A DNA stretch of 45,686 nt, from IMG/VR virus record IMGVR_UViG_3300010149_000035, positions 1-45,686 of that record; one strand, 5' to 3'. The stretch's first letter is position 1; each line of letters starts with the position of its first letter. The notes below the pieces were generated by a model, which was not told the DNA's origin, did no database searches, and was given only the letters and a program-made list of their open reading frames with translations. Source of the DNA: a virus. Shown one piece after another: positions 1,742 through 33,535 of this stretch. The translations under genes were made by a program, and so were the position numbers.

Positions 1742-2456
1742 ATTTTTAATTGGTTTGTTATTTAGCGTATCTGTATTAGCGGATAATGAAGTTCATGTCG
1801 ATCAAAGCGGAAATTCAGCATCTATTGATTTAGAACAGTTAGGATCATCTAACTTAATCGGTGGTACCCAAGCAACATCTGGAACCATGACTGCTTTAGA
1901 TCTAGACGGAGTTTCAATGACTCTTGATATTAATCAAATAGGTAGTAGTAATATATTTAGATCAGATGCTATAGAAGGAGATAATTTTACAGGTTTCTTT
2001 GAGTTTGATGGTGACTCTAATGTATTTGATTTATTATTAAACAGTACAGGATTAATCACTGCTGATTATGTAAACATGAATATAGATGTTACTGGTAGCA
2101 GTAATACATTTGATTTAAAGGCAGGAGAGGATGATGACGTTTCTTATCTTGACCTGGACTGGATTATCTCTGGAGATTCAAATGATTTTGATTTTGACAT
2201 TGACTATGAGAATGCTACAAACTATGTAGATGTTAACGGAAGCAGTAACACAATTAACTTTCTTGGTAATGGCTATGGAGGCTCAACTTCTTCAGACGCT
2301 GGTTACTTTTACTTGGATCTAGATGGCAGTTCAAATACATTCAATATTAAACAACAGTCAACATTGGCTAGAGACTGGATATCAATTACTAGCTCTGCTT
2401 CTAATTCTAATATCTGTATCATTCAAAGCGACGGCGGAACAACAACCAGCTGTTGA
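1731..2456 (+). CDS. Curlin-repeat (CsgA-like) secreted protein, candidate CsgG substrate
   Basis: The 241-residue product has a classic signal peptide (about residues 1-17, ending VLA). The mature protein contains about seven imperfect repeats of roughly 20-40 residues built on alternating hydrophobic residues followed by G-(S/D)-S-N-x-(F/I), for example DQSGNSASI, NQIGSSNIF, DVTGSSNTF, DVNGSSNTI and DLDGSSNTF. This resembles curlin repeats, but most strand Gln residues are replaced by Asp, so the protein is very acidic. There are two cysteines near the C-terminus. Its position directly after csgF-csgG argues that it is the exported substrate. Its last 134 nt also encode, in another frame, the signal peptide of the next gene. 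Whether it forms amyloid is unknown. Confidence 0.78.
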   Translation: MKNKFLIGLLFSVSVLADNEVHVDQSGNSASIDLEQLGSSNLIGGTQATSGTMTALDLDGVSMTLDINQIGSSNIFRSDAIEGDNFTGFFEFDGDSNVFDLLLNSTGLITADYVNMNIDVTGSSNTFDLKAGEDDDVSYLDLDWIISGDSNDFDFDIDYENATNYVDVNGSSNTINFLGNGYGGSTSSDAGYFYLDLDGSSNTFNIKQQSTLARDWISITSSASNSNICIIQSDGGTTTSC

Positions 2457-3486
2457 TGTTGGAAATATATCTGAGTTAAACGGATCTGCACAAGTAGTAA
2501 GAGGTCAGCCATACAGTGCTGAACTAAAGTTTAATATCCAACAAAACGATGAAGCTATAACTACCAATGGTCGTATGGCTATTACATTCCTAGATGATTC
2601 TAAAGTTAAGCTAACTGAACACTCACAACTAACTATAGACGAATACGTCTTTGATCCTAATCCTAGCAAATCTAAAATGGCTATCACCTTTGGTCTTGGC
2701 ACAGCTAGGTTTATCACAGGCAGTCTCAATAAAATTGATAAAAATAATATAGACTTAAAAACACCTACAGCAAACATAGCTATACGTGGTACTGACTTTA
2801 CGGTAACTGTAGATGAAACTGGACGTAGTTTATTAATACTATTACCTGATATTAATGGTTTATCTAGCGGTGAGATATTGGTAACTACAGCAATGGGTAC
2901 AGTTACACTTAATAAACCATACCAAGCTACAACCGTAGATGTATTTGAAAAACCCCCAACCAAACCAGTTATTTTAGACTTAACTTTGGATATTATAGAT
3001 AACATGCTTATTGTTAACCCACCAAAACAAAATATACAGTTAACAGAAGAAACAACAGCAAACACATCAAGCAATATACTGGATGTGGATTATCTAGAGT
3101 TTGAAGATTTAGACAAAGATTATCTAGAGGATGATAGTCTTGAGTTTACGGAGCTTGACTACAATTGGTTAGATGTAAATTTTCTTGAAGACCTGTTAGA
3201 CATATTAGATGAGCTTGAGGTAATACAAGAAGAAGATCAGTTGGCACAAGACGCAACTACATTAAATATAGTTGGAACTAGGCTTGGTCAAGATCTAGAA
3301 ACTCAAATCACAACTTACATGACAGGAGAAAAGCTAACTATAATAAGAAGCGTAAACAATACTGCAAGAGTAGATATTGATTCTGATACGGGTTATACAG
3401 TTATTTTTATTCAAGATGGAGTATCTAGAGTGGTATCAATAAACGGAGGGGAGGGTAGCACCATAAAGGTTACCCAAAGCAACTGA
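2323..3486 (+). CDS. FecR-domain extracytoplasmic protein
   Basis: The ATG at 2323 lies inside the curlin-like gene in another frame. It is supported because the overlap encodes a good signal peptide: a hydrophobic core LLALLLILISVSF followed by an ATA cleavage site. Residues about 45-190 match the FecR domain, including NGSAQVVRGQ, GRMAITFLDDSKVKLTE, a GTARFITG segment and TPTANIAIRGTDF. A strongly acidic Tyr/Leu/Asp/Glu-rich stretch follows (about 255-300), then a beta-rich C-terminus. FecR-domain proteins encoded beside CHASE2 cyclases are common in bacteria, where both are thought to sense extracytoplasmic signals. The stop overlaps the cyclase start by one base (TGATG), implying tight coupling. 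Confidence 0.85.
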   Translation: MAVQIHSILNNSQHWLETGYQLLALLLILISVSFKATAEQQPAVDVGNISELNGSAQVVRGQPYSAELKFNIQQNDEAITTNGRMAITFLDDSKVKLTEHSQLTIDEYVFDPNPSKSKMAITFGLGTARFITGSLNKIDKNNIDLKTPTANIAIRGTDFTVTVDETGRSLLILLPDINGLSSGEILVTTAMGTVTLNKPYQATTVDVFEKPPTKPVILDLTLDIIDNMLIVNPPKQNIQLTEETTANTSSNILDVDYLEFEDLDKDYLEDDSLEFTELDYNWLDVNFLEDLLDILDELEVIQEEDQLAQDATTLNIVGTRLGQDLETQITTYMTGEKLTIIRSVNNTARVDIDSDTGYTVIFIQDGVSRVVSINGGEGSTIKVTQSN

Positions 3487-5231
3487 TGAGAATATTTTTT
3501 TTATTATTAACTATATTAGCAGCACCTTTAGTATTTCAAAGTCCTCCTACAGAAATATTAAAGTTAAAAGTATTTGATTATTTGGTACCCGAACAACAAC
3601 CATCTGGCTATTTCACAATACTAAACATAGATGAAAATTTTATAGACCAGGAAGGAGGCTATCCTTTACCCAGACAGAGACTTGCAAAAATAAATAATGA
3701 AATATTAAATAATGGTGCTCTTGGTATTGGTTGGGTTATATCTTTTCCTCACCCTGATCGACTTGGGGGGGATAAAGAGTTTGCAGAGTCTTTACAACAA
3801 GGTACATCAATATTGGCAATGTTTGAAGCCCCAAATCAAATATACCCAAAAACAGTTGGTACAGTTATCCTGGGTGAAGAAAAAGGTGGTATGTTATCTA
3901 AAGGTGTAGTTCAAAATACTATCAACCTTAGAAATTATATACAACAGGGTATTGCAACTGCACCTACTGATCTTGACAACTTAGTTCGCAGAATACCTTT
4001 ATTATTAAGAACACCAGATGGATATGTACCCGCGTTTGGTACAGAAGTATTAAAAGCATTGGTAGGTGCAAAAACCTATGTAATAAAAACCAATGATCTT
4101 GGTATAGAGGAAATAAGGGTAAAAGGATTACCACCAGTCAAGACAGATAGTTTAGGTCGGAAGTGGATTAGTTGGGTAGACACACCGCAAACCACATTAG
4201 AGGAAATGAATGTCCAGGGAAAGTTTGTATTTGTTGGAATTACTGCAAACGGAATCATGCCACAAGTTGCAACTCCAGTTGGATTATTAGAGCCACACAA
4301 AATACAAGCAGCATTATCTGAGTCAATTTTAATAGAAAATTCTCCTTATATTCCTGACTGGCATTTAGCAGCCGAAATTTTTATTTTAGGAATTTTTGTG
4401 TCGCTGACATGGCTCACAATTAATTTTCTTGGCATAGGTAAGGGTCTAAGTATAGTAATTATTTTGCTCTTCACTACGGGCTTCTCAGGCGTTTTTAGCG
4501 TTCAGAAAGGCATTTTGTTGGATTTTTCATGGACTTTTATCTCTCAAATCATAACTTCCACTGTTGCTTACTATATTAACTTCAAAAAACAATATAAATT
4601 ACGTCAACAAATAAAAAAGCAGTTTGAGCATTACCTAGATCCAAGACAAGTTAAACAATTACAAAAGAATCCTGACCTTCTGAAACTCGGGGGAGAGAAA
4701 AGAAACTGCACATTTCTATTTACAGATGTCAGAGGTTTTACAAATCTATCTGAAAAACTACCACCAGAAGAAGTTACAGATATTATGAACAAAGTTTTAA
4801 CTGTTCAAGTTAAATGTATCCAGGCACATGGTGGCATGGTAGATAAATTCATCGGCGATGCCTGTATGGCAATATTTAATGCACCATTGGATTTAGACTG
4901 CCATGAAGAAAGAGCTATAGCATGTGCAAGAGATATGCGTACAGCCATTCAACAATTACAAAAAGATTTATCAGAGCCCGTAGCTATTGGGTGTGGAATC
5001 AATAGTGGGTACGCAGTAATTGGAAACATGGGATCAGATACTAGGTTTGATTATTCAGCAATTGGTGATGCTGTTAATGTTGCAGCAAGACTTGAATCAG
5101 CTACCAAGGAAGCAGGGGTTGATATATTGATTGGTGAATCAACTGCAAATAAGTCGCAAATTGGGTTAAAATTACTAAAACCAATAAAAGTTAAAGGTAA
5201 AAGTAAACCTTTAATTATATACACAGTATAA
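3486..5231 (+). CDS. CHASE2-domain class III adenylate cyclase
   Basis: Predicted to make cyclic AMP in the host in response to an extracytoplasmic signal. It is a 581-residue membrane protein: an N-terminal hydrophobic segment, a CHASE2 sensor (about 25-285, with VFDYLVP and ILNIDENFID), three transmembrane helices (about 292-375), then a class III cyclase domain (about 400-581). Catalytic residues are present: metal-binding D414 (FTDVRGF) and D458 (IGDACMAIF), base-recognition K454 and D528, which favour ATP over GTP, and transition-state N531 and R535 (NVAARLE). The enzyme therefore looks active. It is the last gene of the curli block and is followed after 8 nt by a holin gene. A cyclase in a phage late module is unusual. 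Confidence 0.9.
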   Translation: MRIFFLLLTILAAPLVFQSPPTEILKLKVFDYLVPEQQPSGYFTILNIDENFIDQEGGYPLPRQRLAKINNEILNNGALGIGWVISFPHPDRLGGDKEFAESLQQGTSILAMFEAPNQIYPKTVGTVILGEEKGGMLSKGVVQNTINLRNYIQQGIATAPTDLDNLVRRIPLLLRTPDGYVPAFGTEVLKALVGAKTYVIKTNDLGIEEIRVKGLPPVKTDSLGRKWISWVDTPQTTLEEMNVQGKFVFVGITANGIMPQVATPVGLLEPHKIQAALSESILIENSPYIPDWHLAAEIFILGIFVSLTWLTINFLGIGKGLSIVIILLFTTGFSGVFSVQKGILLDFSWTFISQIITSTVAYYINFKKQYKLRQQIKKQFEHYLDPRQVKQLQKNPDLLKLGGEKRNCTFLFTDVRGFTNLSEKLPPEEVTDIMNKVLTVQVKCIQAHGGMVDKFIGDACMAIFNAPLDLDCHEERAIACARDMRTAIQQLQKDLSEPVAIGCGINSGYAVIGNMGSDTRFDYSAIGDAVNVAARLESATKEAGVDILIGESTANKSQIGLKLLKPIKVKGKSKPLIIYTV

Positions 5232-7984: not shown

Positions 7985-9228
7985 TGGCTAAAGCCAGAGG
8001 AACCTTTGTTGTACCTAGAGCTTTTGATCATGAAGGAAAAAGATTTGCCTCTAATGTAAATGAGTCTATTGCACAGCTTAAAGGGGAGATAGGAAATCCT
8101 CTTGATGCGGCTGTAACCTTTAGGGATCTTATTGATAAAGGTATTGTAAAACGCGATATAAGAATTAGTGGAACAGGTTCTGTTGTTGGTGGAAGCTCAA
8201 CCAACGTGATTATTGGGGATGAGGAAGTTTTAGATACTCCACCAGTACCAACTGGACTTAGTGCCACAGGTGCTTTTCAAAATATAGTTTTAGACTGGGA
8301 TAATAAAAATTTTGTAGGCTTTTCTCATGCTGAAATATGGTCTGCAACCTCTAATAATTTTGCAAACAGATCTTTTGTTGGACAGACTACTGCCAATGTT
8401 TTTAATCATCAAGTAGGAACTAATCAAACAAGATATTATTGGATACGTTTTGTTAACACTCAAGAAACCCCAGGACCCTTTAATTCAACAACAGGAACAT
8501 CAGCAAGTACTGCATTAATAAATACAGCAGACATTAATGATGGTGCTATATCTTCTGTAAAGATACTTGATGGTGCTATCTTAAATGCAAAGATAGGCAC
8601 AGCAGCTATAGACAGTGCAAAGATAGCAGATGCTGCAATTACTTCAGCCAAGATAGCTGACGCTAATATAACCAACGCTAAGATAGCTGATGCAACCATT
8701 ACAAACGCTAAGATTAGCGACCTCAATGCTACAAAAATAAACGCTGGTCAGCTTGATTCTGCAAGAATAAATGTTGATACTTTGAATGTAAAACATTTTG
8801 ATAATGTTAGTACAGATATAAAATCACATACAGGAGCCTTTGTACCGCTTTTAAGATACGGTTCAGCCATAAGAGGTAGTGGCGGAAACACTACATACAC
8901 AGGATCCAATGCATCCTTTGTGCCAGTAACTATTACTCAGGTTAGAAATAATGCTTCTTACTCTGTAGTTTTGTCTGCCGTGCTAGGTAATGTTAATGGT
9001 GGTAGGGTTCAATATTCTCTAAATAACTCTACGTGGATAACCGCCTCGGGAGGAGAGGCTAATATTTATTGGAGTGCGGGTACATATCGTGGATACACCT
9101 ACACGTATCAGGGACAGATAACAAATATGACGACCTCGCAGAGTACTGTGTATTGGAGGGTTTACTTTTCTGGAACTTATAATCATACGCACATGCAATT
9201 GCACGTTACAATGGATAACACAACCTAA
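7984..9228 (+). CDS. Tail fibre / host-recognition protein with SAKIADA repeats
   Basis: The 414-residue product has an N-terminal attachment region, an FN3-like module (about 85-175, with PPVPTGLSATGAFQNIVLDWD) and a row of 10-residue repeats of the type (S/N)AKIADA-x-IT (about 175-255). A beta-rich C-terminal domain (about 275-414) is rich in Tyr, Thr and Asn. Such repeats form extended trimeric shafts in phage fibres, with the tip binding the receptor. The start overlaps the preceding stop by one base and the end overlaps the next gene the same way. Confidence 0.75.
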   Translation: MAKARGTFVVPRAFDHEGKRFASNVNESIAQLKGEIGNPLDAAVTFRDLIDKGIVKRDIRISGTGSVVGGSSTNVIIGDEEVLDTPPVPTGLSATGAFQNIVLDWDNKNFVGFSHAEIWSATSNNFANRSFVGQTTANVFNHQVGTNQTRYYWIRFVNTQETPGPFNSTTGTSASTALINTADINDGAISSVKILDGAILNAKIGTAAIDSAKIADAAITSAKIADANITNAKIADATITNAKISDLNATKINAGQLDSARINVDTLNVKHFDNVSTDIKSHTGAFVPLLRYGSAIRGSGGNTTYTGSNASFVPVTITQVRNNASYSVVLSAVLGNVNGGRVQYSLNNSTWITASGGEANIYWSAGTYRGYTYTYQGQITNMTTSQSTVYWRVYFSGTYNHTHMQLHVTMDNTT

Positions 9229-9640: not shown

Positions 9641-10054
9641 ATGGATAAAATGCTATCACAAGTAGATGTTAGAGTTTATTGGGATCATATAGAACCTGGT
9701 TTGCGGGAAATAAAAAAAGAAGCAAAACCAGAATGGAGACCAGAAGACATATACTCAGCACTAGTAAATGGGGTAGCAGAGCTTTATGTAGATATAGAGC
9801 AAGACCCATGTGAGAGCTTTATTATTCTACAAGTAAAGCCTAGTATTTTTAAGCCCACGCAATCATTATTAATTTGGGTGGCTTATGATAAAAGAGAAAA
9901 TGCTAATGGCAAATACATGGAGTATATTGAACATATGGCTGAACAAAGAGGATGTAACAAAGTAGAGTTTTGGACACCCTGGAAAGGATTAGCAGATGTC
10001 TTGTCTCATATCGGTTATGAAACAAAACAATACATAGTGGAGAAAAAAATATAA
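9641..10054 (+). CDS. GNAT-fold-like phage protein in the virion module
   Basis: A 137-residue protein with the secondary-structure pattern of small GNAT-like proteins found in podovirus structural clusters: a central beta segment LLIWVAYDKR, a helix with YIEHMAEQRGCNKVEFWTP, and a final GYETKQYIVEKKI strand. No clear acetyl-CoA pyrophosphate loop is visible, so enzymatic activity is doubtful. The 44-nt gap upstream is extremely AT-rich and lacks a good ribosome site. Its stop overlaps the next start (TAATG). Confidence 0.55.
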   Translation: MDKMLSQVDVRVYWDHIEPGLREIKKEAKPEWRPEDIYSALVNGVAELYVDIEQDPCESFIILQVKPSIFKPTQSLLIWVAYDKRENANGKYMEYIEHMAEQRGCNKVEFWTPWKGLADVLSHIGYETKQYIVEKKI

Positions 10055-10629
10055 TGTCAGGCGGCGGCGGATCAACAGAAATTAAAGACACAGCATCACA
10101 AAAAGCATTAGCTTCAATAGCTGCACAAAGATTTAATCTTTATCAACAATATTATAGACCTTTAGAAAATGAATTCATGTCACAAGTTGCTGCTATGAAA
10201 GACCCATCAGCTTTTGAAAGTGTTGAGGGTTATGTTAATGCCTTACAGCAACCAGAATTTCAAGCAGCTAGAGCTAATATGCAACAGCAGGCTTTTGCAA
10301 TGGGAGCAGACCCAACAAGCGGTCAGTATCAAGCCAGAGCATCACAGATGCAACAAGCACAAGCCAGAGGAATGGGGTTAGGAACAACCGAAGCACTCTC
10401 AGGGCAAGTAGATAGATATTATCAAGGCATGCAAAATATCATTGCTATGGGTCAAGGTCAAGCAGGGCAAGCCATATCTGGAATATCTGAGGTTGGAAAA
10501 TTAGCACAACAAAGAGGAATAGCAGAAGCAAAACAGTCTTTTCAAAAAGGTCAAGCTGGACAGGCTGTTATTGGTCAGGGACTTGGTTTTGGTACGGGTC
10601 TTATTGTTAGTGGAGGCAAGGGTTCTTAA
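10054..10629 (+). CDS. Internal virion protein, small ejection-type
   Basis: The 191-residue protein starts MSGGGG, is rich in Gln and Ala in long helices, and ends in a Gly-rich hydrophobic tail. Place and composition match the small internal virion or DNA-ejection proteins (T7 gp14 class) that precede larger internal proteins in podoviruses. It is coupled to its neighbours on both sides by one-base overlaps. There is no enzymatic motif. Confidence 0.6.
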   Translation: MSGGGGSTEIKDTASQKALASIAAQRFNLYQQYYRPLENEFMSQVAAMKDPSAFESVEGYVNALQQPEFQAARANMQQQAFAMGADPTSGQYQARASQMQQAQARGMGLGTTEALSGQVDRYYQGMQNIIAMGQGQAGQAISGISEVGKLAQQRGIAEAKQSFQKGQAGQAVIGQGLGFGTGLIVSGGKGS

Positions 10630-11486: not shown

Positions 11487-12962
11487 ATGAGTTTAGCAAG
11501 CGGATTTGAGTCAGGTTTTAATTTAGCATTAAAATTTAACCAACAAGAAAGAGAAGAAGAAAAGCAAAAAAAACAATTTGAGCTTATGGATTTTCAGCTA
11601 GAAGCTGCTCAAGAAGATATTGAGGCTTCTAAGGAACAAAGAGATTTTAAAAGACAAGAATTTGAATTAGAGAAAAAAAGAATTAATGCCGTAATCGGAA
11701 CATACAAGTCTCAAGAAACGCTAGATAAAGCTAGAACACAGGGATATATTAGAGACAATGAAGCAGACGAATTAGCAGCTGGTGAGAGCGAAAAAGCTCA
11801 AGGTTGGACTGAAGCAGTAACGCTTTTAGATTTGCTTTCAACTTTACCAAAAGATCCAAGGGCTAGAGAAGAACAACTTTATTACGCACAACCACAATAT
11901 GAAGATTTAAAAAAGCGTGGTTTTGATTTGCTTTCAATTGCAAGCCCAAAAACTATGAAGGCATTCAGTAACTTAGATCCAGTTTTACAATCTGGTGATT
12001 TTTCACAAATGAATCCAAGCTTTGCAGATGACCTAACACAAATATACAAATCAGATCTTAACCTGTTTGTAGGTAAAAAATTTATTAGCAATGACAACGA
12101 AGAGGGTGAAATTGTAAATGTAAAAATGAATGGTGATATTGTTGGAAAGGAAAATGGTTTAAGTGCTGTTATTGGTGCAACATATACAGTTAATGTAGAT
12201 GGTGAAGAAAAAGAATACGAAGGATTTTTACCAGATTTAAAAAGTAATACAGTCAGACAAGATCTTGAAGGCAATGATGCGAAAGCTGTTTCAGTCAGAG
12301 ATGCTACTGATATTATGTCTAACCTAAGAAGTTTATCTATAGAATTTCAAAATAATCCAGATTTGCTTGAAGCAGCACAGCAAATGGGGTTAAGGGAGAT
12401 AGGAAAATATAAAACTTTTGACCCTAAAGTAAAAGACAAACCAGATACAGTCACTGTAAGAAATATGTATGACAAAGACATGGAAACTTACATAGACGCA
12501 AAAGCAGTGGCAGTTGCAGAGCTTGACTTAACAGCAAACTATGAAGATCAACAAGAGGAAGTCAGTGATGCTATAGCAAAGTTTCAGTTTGATATGCCAG
12601 GTCTTAAATTAGAAAAAAATGAAGATGGTTTGTATGTAATACCAGAGGAATATAATGATAATCTTGGTGCATATTTTGCATCTGTACAACCAGAATTTAA
12701 TACTTACAAACAAATAGTGTCAAATGACCCAAGTATAGCAACAGCACAGCTCAAGCCAGGACAAAGAAGAATATACGGGTTTGGTTCTGCTGTGTTTGGA
12801 TTTAATGCTAAAAGAGAAGATTATATAGATCAGCTTGGCGACCTTTATGGTGCAGATATTATTGATAATTTAGTAGGTCTTGCACCAGAAAATTTAGACG
12901 ATGAACAGTTGCTTGATTATTTATACATGCAATTAAGACAACAAAAACAAGAGAGACAATAG
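11487..12962 (+). CDS. Internal virion protein, coiled-coil N-terminus
   Basis: A 491-residue protein with a long charged coiled coil at residues about 15-75 (many Glu, Gln and Lys) followed by a mixed acidic region. No catalytic motif is visible. It lies directly before the giant polyvalent gene and two bases after the Ala/Gly-rich gene, in the place held by the mid-sized ejection protein (T7 gp15 class) of other podoviruses. The C-terminal part contains a LKPGQRRIYGFGSAVFGF segment. Confidence 0.55.
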   Translation: MSLASGFESGFNLALKFNQQEREEEKQKKQFELMDFQLEAAQEDIEASKEQRDFKRQEFELEKKRINAVIGTYKSQETLDKARTQGYIRDNEADELAAGESEKAQGWTEAVTLLDLLSTLPKDPRAREEQLYYAQPQYEDLKKRGFDLLSIASPKTMKAFSNLDPVLQSGDFSQMNPSFADDLTQIYKSDLNLFVGKKFISNDNEEGEIVNVKMNGDIVGKENGLSAVIGATYTVNVDGEEKEYEGFLPDLKSNTVRQDLEGNDAKAVSVRDATDIMSNLRSLSIEFQNNPDLLEAAQQMGLREIGKYKTFDPKVKDKPDTVTVRNMYDKDMETYIDAKAVAVAELDLTANYEDQQEEVSDAIAKFQFDMPGLKLEKNEDGLYVIPEEYNDNLGAYFASVQPEFNTYKQIVSNDPSIATAQLKPGQRRIYGFGSAVFGFNAKREDYIDQLGDLYGADIIDNLVGLAPENLDDEQLLDYLYMQLRQQKQERQ

Positions 12963-12963
12963 T

Positions 12964-15900
12964 GTGGCAGAGTATAAATTTGGCGTATTACCCGAAGAAG
13001 AAAATGAAGAACAGCTTGTCACTGAAGAGGAACAAGAATACAAGTTTGGTCAATCTCTAGAGCCAAGAGAGCAGGATCCACTAACCCAAGAAAGCAAGTC
13101 TAGATTACAAAAAACTCCACAATACTTTAAACAAGCTGGCATAGATCTTGTCAAAAGTTTTGCTGGTATCCCAGGTGATTTTCTTAATAGTTTAAAACGA
13201 CAGGCATTTGACGATTTATTAAATGATCTAAATGCACAAGTAGACGATAGTGAAGACACAAACAGTTTAAAAAATCAATTAACAAGAGATAGATTTATTG
13301 GCTATGGTTTCATAAGATCGCAAATTGAACAAGATGTAGGTCTTAAAAGAAGCTTCTTTGGATCTGGAGATCTTGCTTTAAGTGGAAGGGCTGCAAAATC
13401 AAAAGAAGAACTACAAACTATTAGAGAAGAAACACAAAAACAATTTATAGCTTGGCGTGACGAGTGGGACAAAGAGCATAAAGAAGAAAGAGCACTCCAA
13501 CAAAAAAGATATAAAGAAGCTGGGTTCACAGATAGAACAGATCAAACAATAACAGGTGCAATAACAAGTATAGGTCTTGTAGCACCATCCTTAATAGCAG
13601 CTTATGCCACCAAGGATTTTCGTCTAGCATATTCTTCTTTGCCTATATTTGGAACACTTACTTATGGCGAGGTATTTGAAGACTCTATTGCAAGAGGTCT
13701 ATCTATAGAAGACGCATATGCCAATGCAAAAATACAGGCTACCTCCGAGGTAGTAACTGAATTGTTGCCAGCCATGAAACTTGCAAAAGGAATTAATATA
13801 TTTAACAAAGGACCAGGCGATGATTATGTTAAGAAAATATTAAACAATGGTGCTCATGCGTTTATTGCAGATGCTACAGGCGAGCAGGTAAACACATTAA
13901 TACAGTCAAGCTCTAATGCATATTTCGATAACCAAGATCAATTAAGAATAGCTTTCGACAATATGAACAATCCATTTTATGAGGGCAGAAAAATTCATGA
14001 AATAGTTGGCGATAATATGGCTCATACTCTTCTTGCTACTACTATAGCTGGTGGAACAATGACAGGAATTAATACCACAATACAGCTCTCTCCAGAAATA
14101 AAAACAGCTTTAAAAAACAAAGGAGAACAAGAAGGTCAACAAATATTAGATGAGTTATCCAACCTTGTTACTAACAAGGATATGACAAAGATTGCTCTTG
14201 ATAAAGCATCTGCAAGACTAAACACTCCCGAGCTTAAAAATAATAAAAGTCTTGATCCTATGCAAATCATAGCAGAGGAAATATTAAACATTGAATATGT
14301 TGGTAAAACTGAAGTACCAGTAACAGAAGACTTATCTTTTGAGCAAGAGGTTAAAACAAAGTTCAATAAGCCAGAAGAAATAAAACCTGAGTATCAGTTT
14401 GGTGCAACAGATCAGTTAGTCAGCATGCCCAGAAAAGAGGCTGGTAAAGAAACATCTGAAATAAACTTAGACACAGCAAATCTTAGTGAAACTATAAATA
14501 AAACACAAAAGAATATAGAACTTAGTTTGCCAACCAGCAGCCCTATAAACATACAAACAATACAAAACGATGCGTATGATTTTAATGAAGTTAACTTAGT
14601 TGAAAACTACGTTATAGATAGTAGAAAATTTGACCCAGAACTTTTTAATGATTTGCCAGTAAGGTTTAGCGATACTAATTTATATAGAGTTAGAGATTTT
14701 GAGTTAGAAGAAAAATCTAACATTGCAAAAGCTTTTATAGATATTAATAAAGCTGGTGTTCCTATGGATGTATTTAGTGATTTACAATTTATAGGAACCC
14801 ACGTCAAGGACAACAGATTTAAAGATTATACGCCAGCATATGGAACATACATGCCACAAATACAGGGCATATCTTTATCGCCTATAACGGGACTTGGTAA
14901 CTTAAATTTTGAAAATCAGCTTGGGGCAAAGATTCAGCTTAGAGATACATTTATACATGAACTCGGTCATCATATTGACTTTACTATAGGCAAAGATTTA
15001 AGCGTACAGGATAAAAATATATTTACTCCAGTAACAGCAAAATCACCATTATTTAATATACCCAACATGACATTTGAAAATGGGGTAATGAATATTGATG
15101 AAAACTCTGGTGGACCTGTTATAAGAGAAGCATTGCAAATATTGCAAGGATCTTTAAATACCCCTGAGGATTATTATGGCGGTAATATGCTTTCTTATCC
15201 ATTGGGCGAACTTATAGCTAATGGAGATCAACTAACTCCTGGACAACAGAAAGCAATTAAATCAGAAACATTTGCACAAATGTATGATTTATATAATACT
15301 AACAGGGAGCTTGTCAGAGAAAAAGCTCCAGAAACATTCAACCTTATAGAGAGAATTAATGATGCAATATCAGTTGACGGAACTACAGCAAAAAATGAGG
15401 GAGTACAACGAGTATTTCAATCACCCAGTGCCAAACGAAGTTATGAAGTACCAGACACAGGACCAGCTGTTGAGCAAGCTGAAGTCAGCCCTGAAGAGCA
15501 GAGAGCCCGTCCTAGAGTGGAAGAACAGACACGAGAAGATGACGGGGACAGTGTTCGACCTGAAATATCAAGAATAGTCGGAGCTCCTCCTGGAGTAGAT
15601 AATCAAAGAAAAGTTGGTGCTTTAAGAAGAAAAGTAAAAGGTCTTGTTAAAGAAGGAGAGCCAAACAGATTTTGGTATGAAGAAAGCAGCAAAGCTATTT
15701 TAGATATAACCAACAATAACATAGAAGACGCAGACAAGTTAGCACAAGCAATCGCAATAACATCTCCAAGCACAAGTGTAGAAGTTAATACAACTTTTGC
15801 ATTACAAGCCTATTATCAATACAAGGCTGGTCAGCCTATAGAGACTGGCAGATATCCACAAGAAATGAGCAAAAAGTTAGAGCAAGCTTTTGCTGGTCAA

Positions 15901-18900
15901 GAGTGGAAGGGTAAAAAAACAGATAAGTTTTATAATAATTTAATGCGTGTTATTGACCCGAGTAGGGCACAGGGAGTAACCGTAGATTTATGGATGATGC
16001 GTTTGTTTGGATACGGCAAAGATACTGTAAACATAACAGAGTATAGATTTGTAGAAGAAGAGATAAATAAAATTGCTGATGAAATAGGCTGGGAGCCACA
16101 GCAAGTTCAAGCAGCCGCATGGGTTGCGGGAAAAGCAAGAGAGGAAGGGACAGAGGTAGTGGAAGCTGGCTTTAATTTTTCAGATGCTCTTCAAAAAAAT
16201 CTTGGTCAAATAAGCACGGAAACTATACCAGGAAGAACAAACAATCATATGAATGAGATGTTTGAAGCACCTTATGAACAAGTTCAGGAATATCACGTAA
16301 ATGCATCTAAAGCTATATTAGATCAAGATGGTAATGACATAATAGCCCAAAGGCTTGGCATATTGTCACCAGGAATGTTTGAAGCACCAGGATATTACGA
16401 AGGCAAGTTGAGTCCTGGAACTCAAATAGAAATAGCAGTTCCACAAGCAAGAAAGACAAAAGATCAGGTAATACAGCCAGAAGCAGAAGACCTTATTAAG
16501 GCTTATGCTTCTGTGTATGGAATTTTATTTAAACAAGATGCTGTTGGATATCATAAGCCTTTTTACCAAACAAACATTCCAAAATCTAAAAGAAACATAC
16601 ATGAGGCAAGAATAGGAAGACAGGTTACAAATGAAGAGATACAGTCGTTAGCTGATGCCATGGAAAGGATTTCTGGAAAAAACTATTTAAACCCAATACC
16701 AGCACCCAAAGGTGTAAGATTTATAAATTTTGCACAAGAGGATGGTATCAACAATATACAATTTTCAAAACTTGTAGACAAGGTATTAAATGAGGTAGAA
16801 TTAGCAAGTAATATAGAAGTCATAGAGGCAGGATCCGCTCTTGGCTATGTGACAAATGACTGGAGTCAAAATAAAAATGGTGAAAATTACCCGCAAACTA
16901 GCCTCGAAGGACGACCCGATCTTCAAGAAAAGGTTCGTGATATCGTCAGGGAGTTACAACCAAGAATTGATGAAGTCGACACAACCCTCTCAGAAAAATA
17001 TGGATGGACAAGAGATGAATCAATCAACTCCGACTACAGAGAGCCAGGAGAAATTGCCAGAAAACCAGAAGACCCAGAGTTAGATCTATCTTTTGAGATA
17101 ACAAAACCCCCTGCCCCACCAGGCAAACCACCATCAGAAAACTACGAATGGACATCTGGAGATGAGCTTAATGCAAATCTTATGCTCCAAAAGTTTTTAA
17201 CTAAAATTCAAAACCAATACGAGAGACAAGTAGTTCTTGAAGAAGTTATTGAAGATCAATTAGGTATGGGCATACTGAAAGATCTAGACCTATCAGTTGT
17301 TGATAAAACCGATCTAATGAAATCAATAGTTGGTGACAGAATGTTAAAAGTCTCAGAAGAGATGGAAACAACTTTAGAAGAAATGTTTGGCTTGGCAGAC
17401 AACAGTTATGCAAATATAAATGAATTTCTTTATAACCTTCATGCACCAGAAAGAAATAAATATATTTACCAAGAAAGAAGAGCCAAGGTTGATGCGGCAA
17501 TAGAAAAATATGGAGACAACCCAACTCCAGCACAAAAGGCACAAATAACAAGATTAACAAATTTGGCAAAGCCTTTTATAGACAATGGATCTGGAATTAA
17601 AACAGAAGAGGCAATTCAAACTTTAAAAGAAAAATACGGAATTGAATATAACGATAAGAATGATTCAATAGAAGCAATAAACGAGACTGGTAAAAAGTAT
17701 TTAAGAGTTAGTGAGCTTTCAAATAATTTTATACAAGGAACCAGAAATGTATATACAAAAGGCGGATTGGTTAGTGAAGAGAATATAGATGATTGGTCTG
17801 ATAGATATAAATACTATGTTCCCTTATCAGGGTTTGCGGCTGATACAAATGTAGATGGTCTTCCAAATAGAAAGGGTAAGGGCTTATCTGTCTACGGACT
17901 AGAGGTTCCTAAAGCTAAAGGTAGAACCTCAATGGCTGGCGATCCTATAATACAAATGTATAAACAAAGAGAGAATGCTGTTGTTCGGGATGAAAAAAAT
18001 AGTGTAGTAAAAACACTTGCCGATCAAGCAAGAACTTTTAAGAATCCAGCAGTGTATGAAACCCTGGACAAAGTTCCAAAAGAAGCAAAACAAAGACCAG
18101 AATGGGATCCTATAAGACAGTCAGCTTATGTTTTCTTTAAAGAAGACGGCAAACAAAAATCTGTAGTAATAAGAGATGAGCGTTTAGCAAGGGCTCTTCA
18201 ACATCTTGATACTCAAGGCATGAACTCCGTTTTACAAACCATAGCCATTGCAACAAGGTTTATGTCTGTTATGAATACAGGTTACAACCCAGACTTTGTA
18301 TTTCCTAACTTCTCAAGAGATGGTTATGCAGCGGCAGCCAGTGCACTTGGTGAACAGTCCACAAAAGGCGGAAGAATATACGGATCTAAAATTGTATGGA
18401 AGTCTATGAAAAATGTATTTCCAAGACTTGGTGAACTATATACATACTATAGAAAGGGACCAGAAGCTATCAAAGATCCTGGTGCAAGAAAAATGATAGA
18501 GACTTATCATGCCATGGGTGCAAAAACTTCTTACTTTGAATTCTTAGATACAGACAAACTTACAAAAAACTTTACGGCACTTTCTAAATACAGGGCTGGC
18601 AAGATAAGTGCACAAGATTTAAAAAGAAATACCTTAGATTTAGTTGGCGATATAAACAACGCTATAGAAAATGGCTGGAGATATTCACAGTTTACAGAAT
18701 ATGTAAAACAAGTAGGTGGCATTGACAATGTTTCACAAACAAATCTTAAGAGAGCAGCAGTTCAAGCCAAAAATGCTTCAGTTAACTTTGATAGAAGAGG
18801 TGAGTGGGGACAAGAAATAGGTGCATTATTGATGTTCTTTAATCCAGCAGTTCAAGGATCTGTGCAATTTATGCGTGGTCAAAATATCTTTACCAAAAGA

Positions 18901-29554: not shown

Positions 29555-29586
29555 CAAAAAAAAGCGGAGTAGTTACCCCGCTTCTT
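29555..29586 (-). terminator. Intrinsic terminator of the accessory operon
   Basis: Read on the minus strand: stem AAGCGG/CCGCTT (29562-29567 with 29578-29583), a 10-nt loop and a run of eight T (29556-29563) that begins within the end of the stem. It lies 12 nt after the stop of the zinc-ribbon gene, the last gene of the accessory operon. Confidence 0.72.
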
Positions 29587-29597
29587 TGGATCATGGT

Positions 29598-31572: not shown

Positions 31573-31858
31573 TGTCATCCTCCTCGTATAAACTAAATTC
31601 CATATGCCCTCTATCAAGCTCCCACTTGTTCTCACAGACAAGGTAGGCAAGTCTGTTGACCAACCAGTAGCCATTTTGAACAGTGCCATCATCCATAATT
31701 GTCCAAACAAGTCTGTCATCTTGCTTTAAAACAAAGTCAAGCTCTTCACCGTATGTCTCAAAAGCCTTCTCTTGATCATCTTCTGAAAAGTAGCTGTGAT
31801 CATTTGATAGATGATTATCAATAGGTTTATATTTTTCTACGAAAGTATCAATATTCAT
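31565..31858 (-). CDS. Hypothetical accessory protein
   Basis: The ATG at 31858 follows GGAGGG and overlaps the previous stop (ATGA); the product is 97 residues. It is acidic, with an alpha-beta pattern ([35 protein letters not shown]). It overlaps the next gene by 8 nt. No family recognised. Confidence 0.55.
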
Positions 31859-31983
31859 GATTGCCCTCCAAAAGATAAAGCTATTGCAAGTGCCATTGAT
31901 AATCCAACTGGCACACATATTATTATTGCGAACAAGATATAAGTAAGCCTATCTCGTTTCGCTATTTCTTCTTTGTAAGTCAT
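31855..31983 (-). CDS. Small single-span membrane protein
   Basis: A 42-residue ORF: a charged N-terminus (MTYKEEIAKRDRLT) and one transmembrane segment (about 15-37). It is the gene directly behind hammerhead ribozyme 1; the predicted cleavage leaves a 27-nt leader with a GGAGGG ribosome site. Its stop overlaps the next start (ATGA). A membrane-level exclusion or regulation role is possible. Confidence 0.55.
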   Translation of the reverse strand: MTYKEEIAKRDRLTYILFAIIICVPVGLSMALAIALSFGGQS

Positions 31984-32004: not shown

Positions 32005-32058
32005 GACTAAGACTCCCATTGCTGGGAGTTTCGCTCATTAAGAGCTCATCAGTTAGCC
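32005..32058 (-). ncRNA. Hammerhead ribozyme 1 (type I)
   Basis: On the minus-strand transcript all parts of a hammerhead are present. Stem I is GGCUAA/UUAGUC (32058-32053 with 32010-32005, one G-U). The core is CUGAUGA (32052-32046). Stem II is GCUC-UUAAU-GAGC, followed by GAAA (32032-32029). Stem III is CUCCCA/UGGGAG closed by a GCAA (GNRA) tetraloop. The cleavage triplet is GUC, with the cut between 32011 and 32010. Stem I is the open stem, hence type I. Every invariant core base is present. It lies exactly between the stop of the 129-residue gene (its first base is the G of that TAG) and the ribosome site of the membrane-protein gene. Confidence 0.93.
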
Positions 32059-32447
32059 TAGCTGTGGTACCACATATCCCACTTCTGCACGATCTCATAA
32101 ATATCGTAGTCAGCTTTATTCTGGATAGCTTCCTTTAGATCATTAAAGACTGCTGATCTGTAATCCCATCTATCTGGTTTGTTGATGGTGTAGCCCTTAT
32201 CCATGAAATAGGCATAGTCTTCTACCAGTCCATGATCCTTGGATAGTTCCTTGGTGATCCACTTGACCATATCTATGGCTTGCTCATGAAATGATCTTTT
32301 AAGCTCAACATAGTTCAAGAAGTTAGTGTCTCCAAAGTCAAGAACATCTGCTCCCTGTTGTTCAGCCTTGCCCATTATTTCAGTAGCAATAACCATTTCT
32401 CTTTCCCAAGATTCTTGGGCATCAGTTTTAGTATTTAAGTTTTTCAT
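32058..32447 (-). CDS. Hypothetical accessory protein between two ribozymes
   Basis: A 129-residue protein starting MKNLNTKTDAQESWERE after an AAAGGAGGGA site. It is helical, acidic and Trp-rich near the C-terminus (YEIVQKWDMWYHS). No family recognised. Its message would be released upstream by hammerhead 2 and downstream by hammerhead 1, giving a stand-alone mRNA. The G of its TAG stop is the first base of ribozyme 1. Confidence 0.6.
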   Translation of the reverse strand: MKNLNTKTDAQESWEREMVIATEIMGKAEQQGADVLDFGDTNFLNYVELKRSFHEQAIDMVKWITKELSKDHGLVEDYAYFMDKGYTINKPDRWDYRSAVFNDLKEAIQNKADYDIYEIVQKWDMWYHS

Positions 32448-32468
32448 AGTCCCTCCTTTAATTTGTTT

Positions 32469-32520
32469 GACTAAGACTCCCCGTAGGGAGTTTCGCTCAT
32501 TAAGAGCTCATCAGTTAGCC
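32469..32520 (-). ncRNA. Hammerhead ribozyme 2 (type I)
   Basis: The architecture is the same as copy 1. Stem I is GGCUAA (32520-32515) with UUAGUC (32474-32469), the core CUGAUGA (32514-32508), stem II GCUC-UUAAU-GAGC, then GAAA (32494-32491). Stem III is CUCCC/GGGAG closed by UACG, a stable UNCG tetraloop different from copy 1. The cut is predicted between 32475 and 32474 after GUC. The ribozyme begins at the G of the upstream TAG stop and leaves a 27-nt leader for the next gene. Confidence 0.93.
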
Positions 32521-32918
32521 TATATATATACAGCAAATGATCCGTTATTTTTAAACGGGTGACCATGCACGCTAATCTTTACCATTTTCTTTTCACTCAT
32601 CATGTATTTTTTTTCAGACTGCAAGATTAATTTTTTAACAAAGTCTTTTGCTTCTTTCTTAGTAATTGTTAAGCAGTTGCTGTATAGGTCCTTATAGACT
32701 TCATCGTTATCAATCAGCTCTTGTGTATAGCAATCAGTGCGGATGAGCATGCCAACACTATCACATCTTCTCATCCTAATGATTTTGTCTAACTCTTTTG
32801 GTGTGACAAACATATAGTCGTGTCTTACTTCGACCAGTTCATCAAGATTATCACCATATCCTTTAGCCTTCATTCTTACTGCTATTGCTCTATCTATTTT
32901 ATTTTTTAATGTTTTCAT
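32520..32918 (-). CDS. Hypothetical accessory protein between two ribozymes
   Basis: The ATG at 32918, after TTAGGAGGGA, gives 132 residues beginning MKTLKNKIDRAIAVRMKAKG. It has a mixed alpha/beta pattern and a beta C-terminus with KMVKISVHGHPFKNNGSF. No family recognised. Longer in-frame readings would run through ribozyme 3 and are rejected. It is flanked by ribozyme 3 upstream and ribozyme 2 downstream. Confidence 0.62.
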   Translation of the reverse strand: MKTLKNKIDRAIAVRMKAKGYGDNLDELVEVRHDYMFVTPKELDKIIRMRRCDSVGMLIRTDCYTQELIDNDEVYKDLYSNCLTITKKEAKDFVKKLILQSEKKYMMSEKKMVKISVHGHPFKNNGSFAVYI

Positions 32919-32938
32919 AGTCCCTCCTAATTTTGTTT

Positions 32939-33005
32939 GACTAAGACCATCTCGATTCGCGGGGAAAAAAGATGGTTTCGACCAATCAGGTCTCATCAGT
33001 TAGCC
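32939..33005 (-). ncRNA. Hammerhead ribozyme 3 (type I, divergent stems)
   Basis: The core is identical to copies 1 and 2 (GGCUAA, CUGAUGA, GAAA, GUC, UUAGUC), but stems II and III are different and still pair. Stem II is GACC-UGAUU-GGUC (32992-32980). Stem III is CCAUCU/AGAUGG (32975-32970 with 32952-32947) with a 17-nt loop. The cut is predicted between 32945 and 32944. Two stem II pairs and four stem III pairs changed in a compensatory way against copy 1, strong evidence for selection on structure. It starts right after a TAA stop and leaves a 26-nt leader. Confidence 0.92.
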
Positions 33006-33467
33006 TTATGTATAGTAAGCATCAGAAGCTGGTGACAAATAGCTTGGAGTATTTTTTCTCTCCATAAACTTGGTACCACAAACTTTGTTAGTGCGTTCAA
33101 CCATTGGTTCGTTCTCGTAAAAATAATCATAAGTAACAACTTCTGAATTGCATAATTGCTTGTAGCGTTTCCAGTCGCTGTTATATTCTTTCATCTCTTC
33201 TCGATGAGCATCAATCCCTTCTTGTGTCGCGTATTTATTGGGACCATTCACTTCTTCTGTAAATCTACCGCTGTTATAAAGATTGTTAATATAATTTACA
33301 GTATCATTCAGATCATCTATAAACCATCCATAGTGATGATTCTTTCTTCTAGTAAGATAGCTTTTAGCTTGAGCTTGAGAATTCCACTCTTTGCGTCCAT
33401 ATCTTGTCCCAGTCTTTGGGTTATATATAACGTAAGTTACTGATTTATCGTTGTTTAATGTTGTCAT
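33006..33467 (-). CDS. First accessory-operon gene, conserved phage protein
   Basis: The 153-residue product starts MTTLNNDKSVTYVIYNPKTG. Its N-terminal part (SQAQAKSYLTRR) and its C-terminus (FMERKNTPSYLSPASDAYYT) follow a pattern shared by many aquatic phages, where the end typically reads NTP-x-Y-x-SPSS-x-x-Y. Function unknown. It is the promoter-proximal gene, with a TAGGAGGGA ribosome site, and is followed immediately by ribozyme 3. Confidence 0.65.
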   Translation of the reverse strand: MTTLNNDKSVTYVIYNPKTGTRYGRKEWNSQAQAKSYLTRRKNHHYGWFIDDLNDTVNYINNLYNSGRFTEEVNGPNKYATQEGIDAHREEMKEYNSDWKRYKQLCNSEVVTYDYFYENEPMVERTNKVCGTKFMERKNTPSYLSPASDAYYT

Positions 33468-33507: not shown

Positions 33508-33535
33508 AGTATAGCTATACGATATGTAGTGTCAA
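33508..33535 (-). promoter_or_regulatory. Promoter of the ribozyme-punctuated accessory operon
   Basis: Minus strand: perfect -35 TTGACA (33530-33535), a 16-nt spacer and -10 TATACT (33508-33513). A perfect 12-bp palindrome, GTATAGCTATAC (33509-33520), covers most of the -10 and part of the spacer and could be an operator. Transcription would start near 33500 and run about 4 kb to the terminator at 29555-29586. Confidence 0.68.

Follow-up and report, generated by a model that had tools for sequence, protein, structure and literature searches.

Operon layout

Which role may be played by three hammerhead ribozymes that occupy three consecutive gene junctions of a single phage operon? This question is raised by the region between positions 32,005 and 33,005 of the IMG/VR virus record IMGVR_UViG_3300010149_000035. 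The record was analysed over its whole length of 45,686 nucleotides, and this stretch is referred to below as the window.

The region lies in an operon-like run of genes on the minus strand, with one strong promoter match ahead of it and one strong terminator match behind it. The putative promoter at 33508..33535 precedes gene 1. It was recognised by its match to the sigma-70 consensus (TTGACA-16-TATACT, 11 of 12 consensus positions), and it is the best promoter site that the region offers on its minus strand. No comparable site is present before genes 2 and 3. The predicted end of the operon is an intrinsic terminator-like hairpin of 13 bp followed by a T-rich tail (29558..29587, minus strand), the best of six such hairpins found, with 2.0 expected.

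The first four genes of the run are all encoded by the minus strand. Gene 1 (33006..33467) is an open reading frame of 153 aa, and its TAA stop codon abuts hammerhead 1. Homologues of this gene are found in IMG/VR; it has no Pfam match and one very weak PHROG match. The ATG of gene 2 (32520..32918, 132 aa) lies 26 nt past the predicted cut of hammerhead 1, and its TAG stop codon overlaps hammerhead 2 by one base. Gene 3 (32058..32447, 129 aa) repeats this layout, with the ATG 27 nt past the second cut and a TAG overlapping hammerhead 3 by one base. Homologues of gene 3 exist both with and without hammerheads. Gene 4 (31855..31983) encodes a small hydrophobic protein of 42 aa; its ATG is found 27 nt past the third cut, and it opens the remainder of the operon, which would stay uncut. 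No relatives of the window genes were found when the region was compared with the INPHARED phages by blastn and tblastn. The left arm of the window contains, on the plus strand at 914-1741 and 2323-3486, genes encoding CsgG (curli assembly/transport) and FecR-domain proteins.

The three hammerheads of the window

The preliminary description of this DNA placed complete type I hammerheads in three consecutive intercistronic gaps on the minus strand, with every invariant base present in each of them. All of this was borne out by the analysis, and the positions proved right to the base. Hammerhead 1 (32939..33005) has a stem I of 6 bp, a stem II of 4 bp and a stem III of 8 bp, and its predicted cut is at 32945/32944. 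Hammerhead 2 (32469..32520), in which stem III is capped by UACG, would be cut at 32475/32474. Hammerhead 3 (32005..32058) has a stem III of 7 bp and a predicted cut at 32011/32010. The order of the elements on the minus strand is the same in all three: GGCUAA, CUGAUGA, the 4-bp stem II with a loop of 5 nt, GAA, stem III with A15.1 as its first and U16.1 as its last base, C17 and UUAGUC. The invariant core, C3 U4 G5 A6 N7 G8 A9, G12 A13 A14, A15.1-U16.1 and H17, is complete in each copy. Stems II and III are closed by loops and stem I is open-ended, which makes the elements type I hammerheads, an assignment that is also supported by the core and by covariation. The copies are not identical. 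Stem II reads GACC/GGUC in copy 1 and GCUC/GAGC in copies 2 and 3, stem III differs as well, and the changes are paired.

A structural scan was performed with a pattern consisting of the CUGANGA core, stem II, GAA, a stem III with the A15.1-U16.1 pair, H17 and a stem I of at least 4 bp. The scan accepted the three hammerheads and nothing else in the window; 60 order-1 shuffles gave no match at all. A simple search for the core and GAAA gives four further matches on the plus strand of the window, none of which is accepted as a hammerhead by the structural scan. Taken in isolation, each copy folds exactly into the hammerhead structure, at -16 to -19 kcal/mol. In folding predictions with about 60 nt of flanking context, which ignore tertiary contacts, stems II and III were usually kept, and stem I was formed in 23% of 120 relatives and was absent from all three window copies. 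A covariance model, R1, was built in the present analysis from 55 diverse relatives. Run on the window with filters off, it gave 73.0 bits for hammerhead 2, 70.8 bits for hammerhead 3 and 64.4 bits for hammerhead 1 (E-values 1e-17 to 1e-14), the next-best match scoring 12.8 bits. Two of the window copies were part of the training set; the third (33005-32939) was left out of it and still reached its 64.4 bits.

The preliminary description had proposed a search with the Rfam hammerhead models as a check, and at the curated (gathering) threshold this search found none of the three copies. At permissive thresholds, they match Hammerhead_1 (RF00163), Hammerhead_HH9 (RF02275) and RAGATH-1-hammerhead (RF03152) at 17-23 bits. 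The best scores, 20.1, 18.4 and 23.3 bits, respectively, lie far below the gathering values of 34, 52 and 56.3. The catalytic core of the three Rfam families is the same as that of the window copies. RAGATH-1, however, has an additional upstream hairpin, and the stem I of HH9 is longer. The misses extend beyond the window. In 11 loci, one hammerhead among roughly 50 was found by Rfam at the gathering threshold, and the known hammerhead of PaP3 was missed as well, while R1 recovers it (44114-44031, 34.2 bits). This shows that the silence of Rfam stems from its models and thresholds and is not evidence against the motif. Owing to this gap, such elements are overlooked in phage annotation.

Covariation and structural constraint

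Structural constraint was assessed on 129 distinct pattern matches, whose selection relied solely on the core, on stem I and on the first pairs of the other two stems. The inner pairs of stems II and III are formed in 126-128 of the 129 matches at six of seven positions, and in 101 at the seventh; the control with shuffled partners gave 51-79 of 129. In the alignment of 55 sequences, 98.8% of the cells pair and 13 of the 15 pairs have changed on both sides. The covariation amounts to 0.714, compared with 0.167 for shuffled and at most 0.093 for slid alignments. Both sets thus back all three helices round the core. Compensatory changes in the stems, with pairing kept, indicate that selection acts on the RNA structure and not on DNA identity.

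Several features recur in the relatives. A GNRA loop caps stem III in 64 of the 129 matches. Stem I has 6 bp in 212 and stem II has 4 bp in 195 of the 232 hammerheads, among the matches listed. A loop II of the UNNNU type is accompanied by A on both flanks of stem I in 76 of 77 cases, and a GNAA loop by other flanks in all six (76/1 versus 0/6, Fisher 2e-8; the sequences are related). Within the limits set by this relatedness, the pattern would fit the docking of loop II with stem I that is known from fast natural hammerheads.

Distribution among phages

The strict pattern matched 65 IMG/VR stretches and a looser one at least 119. The relatives found in IMG/VR comprise at least 232 distinct hammerheads in at least 122 loci, and this abundance is a lower bound. 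Searches of whole records gave 14 copies in the 40-kb record G015, 11 in G022 and 10 in G023. The hammerheads of G015 and G023 are concentrated in a region of small genes and are all oriented in the gene direction. The A-rich leaders of G023/L140, which contain no Shine-Dalgarno sites, suggest a Bacteroidota-type host. Five hammerheads at 11853-13736 (plus strand) of contig L105 share two recurring 11-bp A+T-rich stem III sequences, as if they had been duplicated.

Unannotated copies are also present in cultured phages. The Pelagibacter phage Eistla EXVC025P contains two, at 8785-8849 and 10039-10108, HTVC142P one, and HTVC031P one and a weak second copy; further copies are found in Agrobacterium phage OLIVR1, at 3958-4013, and in Flavobacterium phage elemoA_7-9A. 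In the last of these (MT497017.1), the annotated CDS elemo79Aphanotate_43 (17275-17382, plus strand) runs antisense over the hammerhead at 17349-17286 (minus strand) and is probably not a gene. A search confined to the open-access literature found no publication that describes hammerheads in these phages. When the strict pattern was applied to approximately 85,000 genomes of bacteria and archaea, a single match was obtained, at 3796-3858 (minus strand) of a Daejeonella MAG contig that may represent a prophage or a co-binned phage sequence, and a plasmid search using one ribozyme returned nothing beyond a weak partial match. The arrangement is far commoner and more regular than is apparent from public databases.

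Position relative to the flanking genes

The position of the ribozymes between their genes is tightly constrained. Among the matches listed, the stop codons of the upstream genes cluster between approximately -7 and +20 nt relative to stem I, most commonly ending at the first base of the element, as a UAA within stem I or as the UGA of the core, and the downstream genes mostly start 23-33 nt past the cut. In the relatives, 78 of 123 neighbouring pairs of hammerheads enclose exactly one gene (among the matches listed). The suggestion in the preliminary description that hammerheads act as regular gene-to-gene punctuation is thus only partly right; in the window, moreover, all other junctions of the operon are free of ribozymes.

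The flanked genes are not constant. Those located downstream form, among the matches listed, 132 unrelated groups, mostly without an assigned function, and no family is matched by more than three of the 132 non-homologous downstream genes. Genes for RNA polymerase, DNA polymerase, DNA ligase, endolysin and anti-restriction proteins occur as single examples. The ribozyme is 98-100% identical between phages in which the adjacent homologous proteins are about 46-59% identical. When the window is compared with L069, L013 or L035, the element is 100% identical, and the homologous downstream proteins share 46-50% identity.

Comparison of gene ends with and without a ribozyme

Homologues of genes 1 and 3 were fetched by protein, regardless of ribozymes, which allowed a natural comparison. 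An intrinsic terminator within 130 nt was found at none of the 17 gene ends with a hammerhead and at 10 of the 13 gene ends without one. The Fisher value of 1e-5 overstates this contrast, because the contigs within each set are related. Two of the 13 ends, those of L180 and L183, were counted as having no terminator; a further small gene follows in both. A -10 site close to the consensus lies a short distance upstream of most of the ribozyme-less homologues in this comparison. As judged by these predicted signals, the ribozyme of genes 1 and 3 stands where ribozyme-less relatives would start and end separate transcripts.

A general rule, by which ribozymes always replace terminators, fails across all families. 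Only 9 of 80 ribozyme-less homologous ends have a terminator, and these 9 belong mostly to the same two gene families, those of genes 1 and 3. In most ribozyme-less homologues the next gene follows closely, as in an ordinary tight operon without a terminator; the ribozymes are optional. Extension of the comparison to the genes of L095 and L105 yielded no further relatives.

Two kinds of repeats were observed near ribozyme-less homologues. Runs of GATC-containing repeats follow the gene 3 homologue within about 0-60 nt in L175, L176, L178, L179 and L182, and lead into terminators built on GGGGATC...GATCCC. Around the gene 1 homologue of L187, L189, L190 and L191, an imperfect palindrome, ACCCATWATGGGT, is located just before the -10 site of successive small genes and resembles the shared operator of a phage regulon.

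Proposed processing of the operon transcript

Hammerheads cleave RNA so that one product carries a 2',3'-cyclic phosphate and the other a 5'-hydroxyl (PMC3088659). In a halovirus, the mapped 5' end of a transcript is no more than three nucleotides away from the cut of its hammerhead (PMC3088659). We propose that the three type I hammerheads of the window split the co-transcript of the operon into single-gene messages. This explanation is the best supported one, with a probability of roughly 0.77, and it agrees with the preliminary description, which had the three copies cutting one mRNA into separate messages. It rests on the motif, its conservation, its covariation and its placement, from which, together with the one predicted promoter and the one predicted terminator of the operon-like run, we infer co-transcription, cleavage and end protection in this phage. 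The frequent loss of stem I in the folding predictions with flanking context counts against it, as does the optional nature of the ribozymes. The transcript would start at about 33.5 kb and, during or after transcription, would cut itself just after each GUC, once per gene junction. Genes 1, 2 and 3 would thereby end up on separate RNAs of approximately 0.56, 0.47 and 0.46 kb, respectively, and some 2.5 kb of transcript would remain. At every cut, the RNA released upstream is expected to terminate in the stem III hairpin and to bear a 2',3'-cyclic phosphate, and the one released downstream to start with a 5'-hydroxyl, followed by a short leader with the Shine-Dalgarno site. The likely use of this processing is the formation of separately decaying mRNAs, with a 3' end protected by the hairpin and a 5' end without the phosphate that host decay enzymes prefer.

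The early mRNAs of phage T7 are processed by RNase III, which cuts intercistronic structures and gives single-gene mRNAs with a 3' hairpin. The processing proposed for the window is similar in that one transcript would be cut between its genes and a 3' hairpin would be left. T7, however, needs a protein enzyme of the host, whereas the RNA of the window would be self-cleaving, with 5'-hydroxyl and cyclic-phosphate ends as the outcome.

Other explanations of the locus were considered. A motif that arose by chance or has decayed to inactivity would agree with the lack of Rfam hits at the curated threshold, but it is extremely improbable in view of the empty shuffles, the covariation and the near-perfect conservation beside diverged genes. 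The repeats may also represent shared DNA at gene borders that favours gene swapping by recombination, the ribozyme activity being secondary or selfish. The flanking genes are frequently exchanged: among ribozyme pairs from different contigs, 171 share the upstream homologue only and 180 the downstream homologue only, and 25 identical pairs share neither. This frequent exchange on both flanks places the element at module borders, and the 132 unrelated downstream genes (among the matches listed) likewise favour recombination. The stems, however, vary by compensatory substitutions that keep the pairing, which requires selection on RNA structure and not on DNA identity, and every copy examined in full genomes reads along its genes. 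We therefore regard recombination as an unlikely primary role.

More serious, although still tentative, is the possibility that the ribozyme chiefly serves the downstream gene by trimming its leader to a fixed, hydroxyl-ended and weakly structured ribosome-binding site, with gene separation as a by-product. Ribozyme identity does track the downstream gene more closely than the upstream one: its median is 0.85 where the downstream gene alone is homologous and 0.75 where the upstream gene alone is, and 27 identical pairs have a downstream-only homologue compared with 9 that have an upstream-only one. Moreover, promoter-like repeats, TATGTATTTATATGTATG, stand directly before several hammerheads of L140 (approximately 3480-3560, 4040-4080 and 4990-5030), the first of which precedes the first gene of its run, so that some copies, besides separating genes, may shorten the 5' end of newly started transcripts. 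Against this, nearly all copies are located at an intergenic stop codon and not at a transcript start (among the matches listed). The ribosome-binding region is predicted to become only slightly more open after the cut, from 0.58 to 0.63, and this small modelled gain suggests that translation is not the main effect. A translational switch based on pairing between UAGUC, in the 3' strand of stem I, and GACUA at the start codon was rejected, since gene 4, unlike genes 2 and 3, is not preceded by the complement. Finally, a reversal of the hammerhead reaction, or RtcB, might join the ends of the fragments carrying genes 2 and 3 and so produce circular mRNAs. Cleavage yields ends suited to such ligation, and stem I, GGCUAA/UUAGUC, is common to all three window copies, which allows a fragment to pair through its 5' end with the ribozyme at its 3' end. 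In arrays of at least three copies, 52 of 102 neighbours can cross-pair, compared with 43.5 expected by order (p 0.002). Such an excess is, however, expected from local duplication. Half of the neighbours are unable to cross-pair, and the 10-copy array of G023 contributes many such pairs. A scan of the proteins of part of the window ORFs revealed no recognisable RNA ligase. Perreault et al. sought spliced or circular products and found none (PMC3088659). Circularisation is accordingly very unlikely; if true, the circular mRNAs of genes 2 and 3 would be long-lived messages, and linear processing would be only the first half of the mechanism.

Relation to known hammerhead arrays

The preliminary description put the locus forward as a candidate for an undescribed kind of phage arrangement, which is wrong. 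In 2011, Perreault et al. reported that individual genes or short blocks of genes in prophages are often bordered by multiple hammerheads, proposed processing into single-gene mRNAs, and showed that tandem arrays, including a triple array of Agrobacterium tumefaciens, cleave in vitro and, in the case of A. tumefaciens, also in E. coli (PMC3088659). Since the arrangement, its probable effect and its activity had already been described, the claim to novelty falls, while the observation itself was right. The window, in which at least two hammerheads of a phage operon border single genes or short blocks, belongs to this kind of arrangement. As in the prophage arrays of A. tumefaciens (the ardA triple), Clostridium scindens and Azorhizobium caulinodans, several copies per operon are associated with unrelated single genes. 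Compared by description, not stem by stem, the window type differs from these arrays in being a compact type I hammerhead with a 6-bp stem I and a 4-bp stem II, a stop codon at the start of stem I, a fixed distance to the next start codon, up to 14 copies per genome, and in being mostly missed by Rfam. In PaP3 and the haloviruses HF1 and HF2, a hammerhead core is likewise located upstream of an early gene; these differ in having one copy per genome (checked for PaP3), reported core variants and no array.

What is new here is the extent of the arrangement, the fixed geometry of stop codon, ribozyme and start codon, the gap in Rfam, the elements' conservation next to genes that have diverged, the comparison with terminators and the presence in cultured phages. 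In a review of 2017, the role of phage hammerheads was regarded as an open question (PMC6155905). The window and its relatives narrow this question: the ribozymes belong to a tight unit of stop codon, ribozyme and ribosome-binding site, stay nearly constant beside fast-diverging genes, serve many unrelated ones and, in two gene families, are found at the position of a predicted terminator, and often of a new promoter-like site, of the ribozyme-less relatives. As the arrangement is present in phages grown in the laboratory, its purpose can now be tested in vivo.
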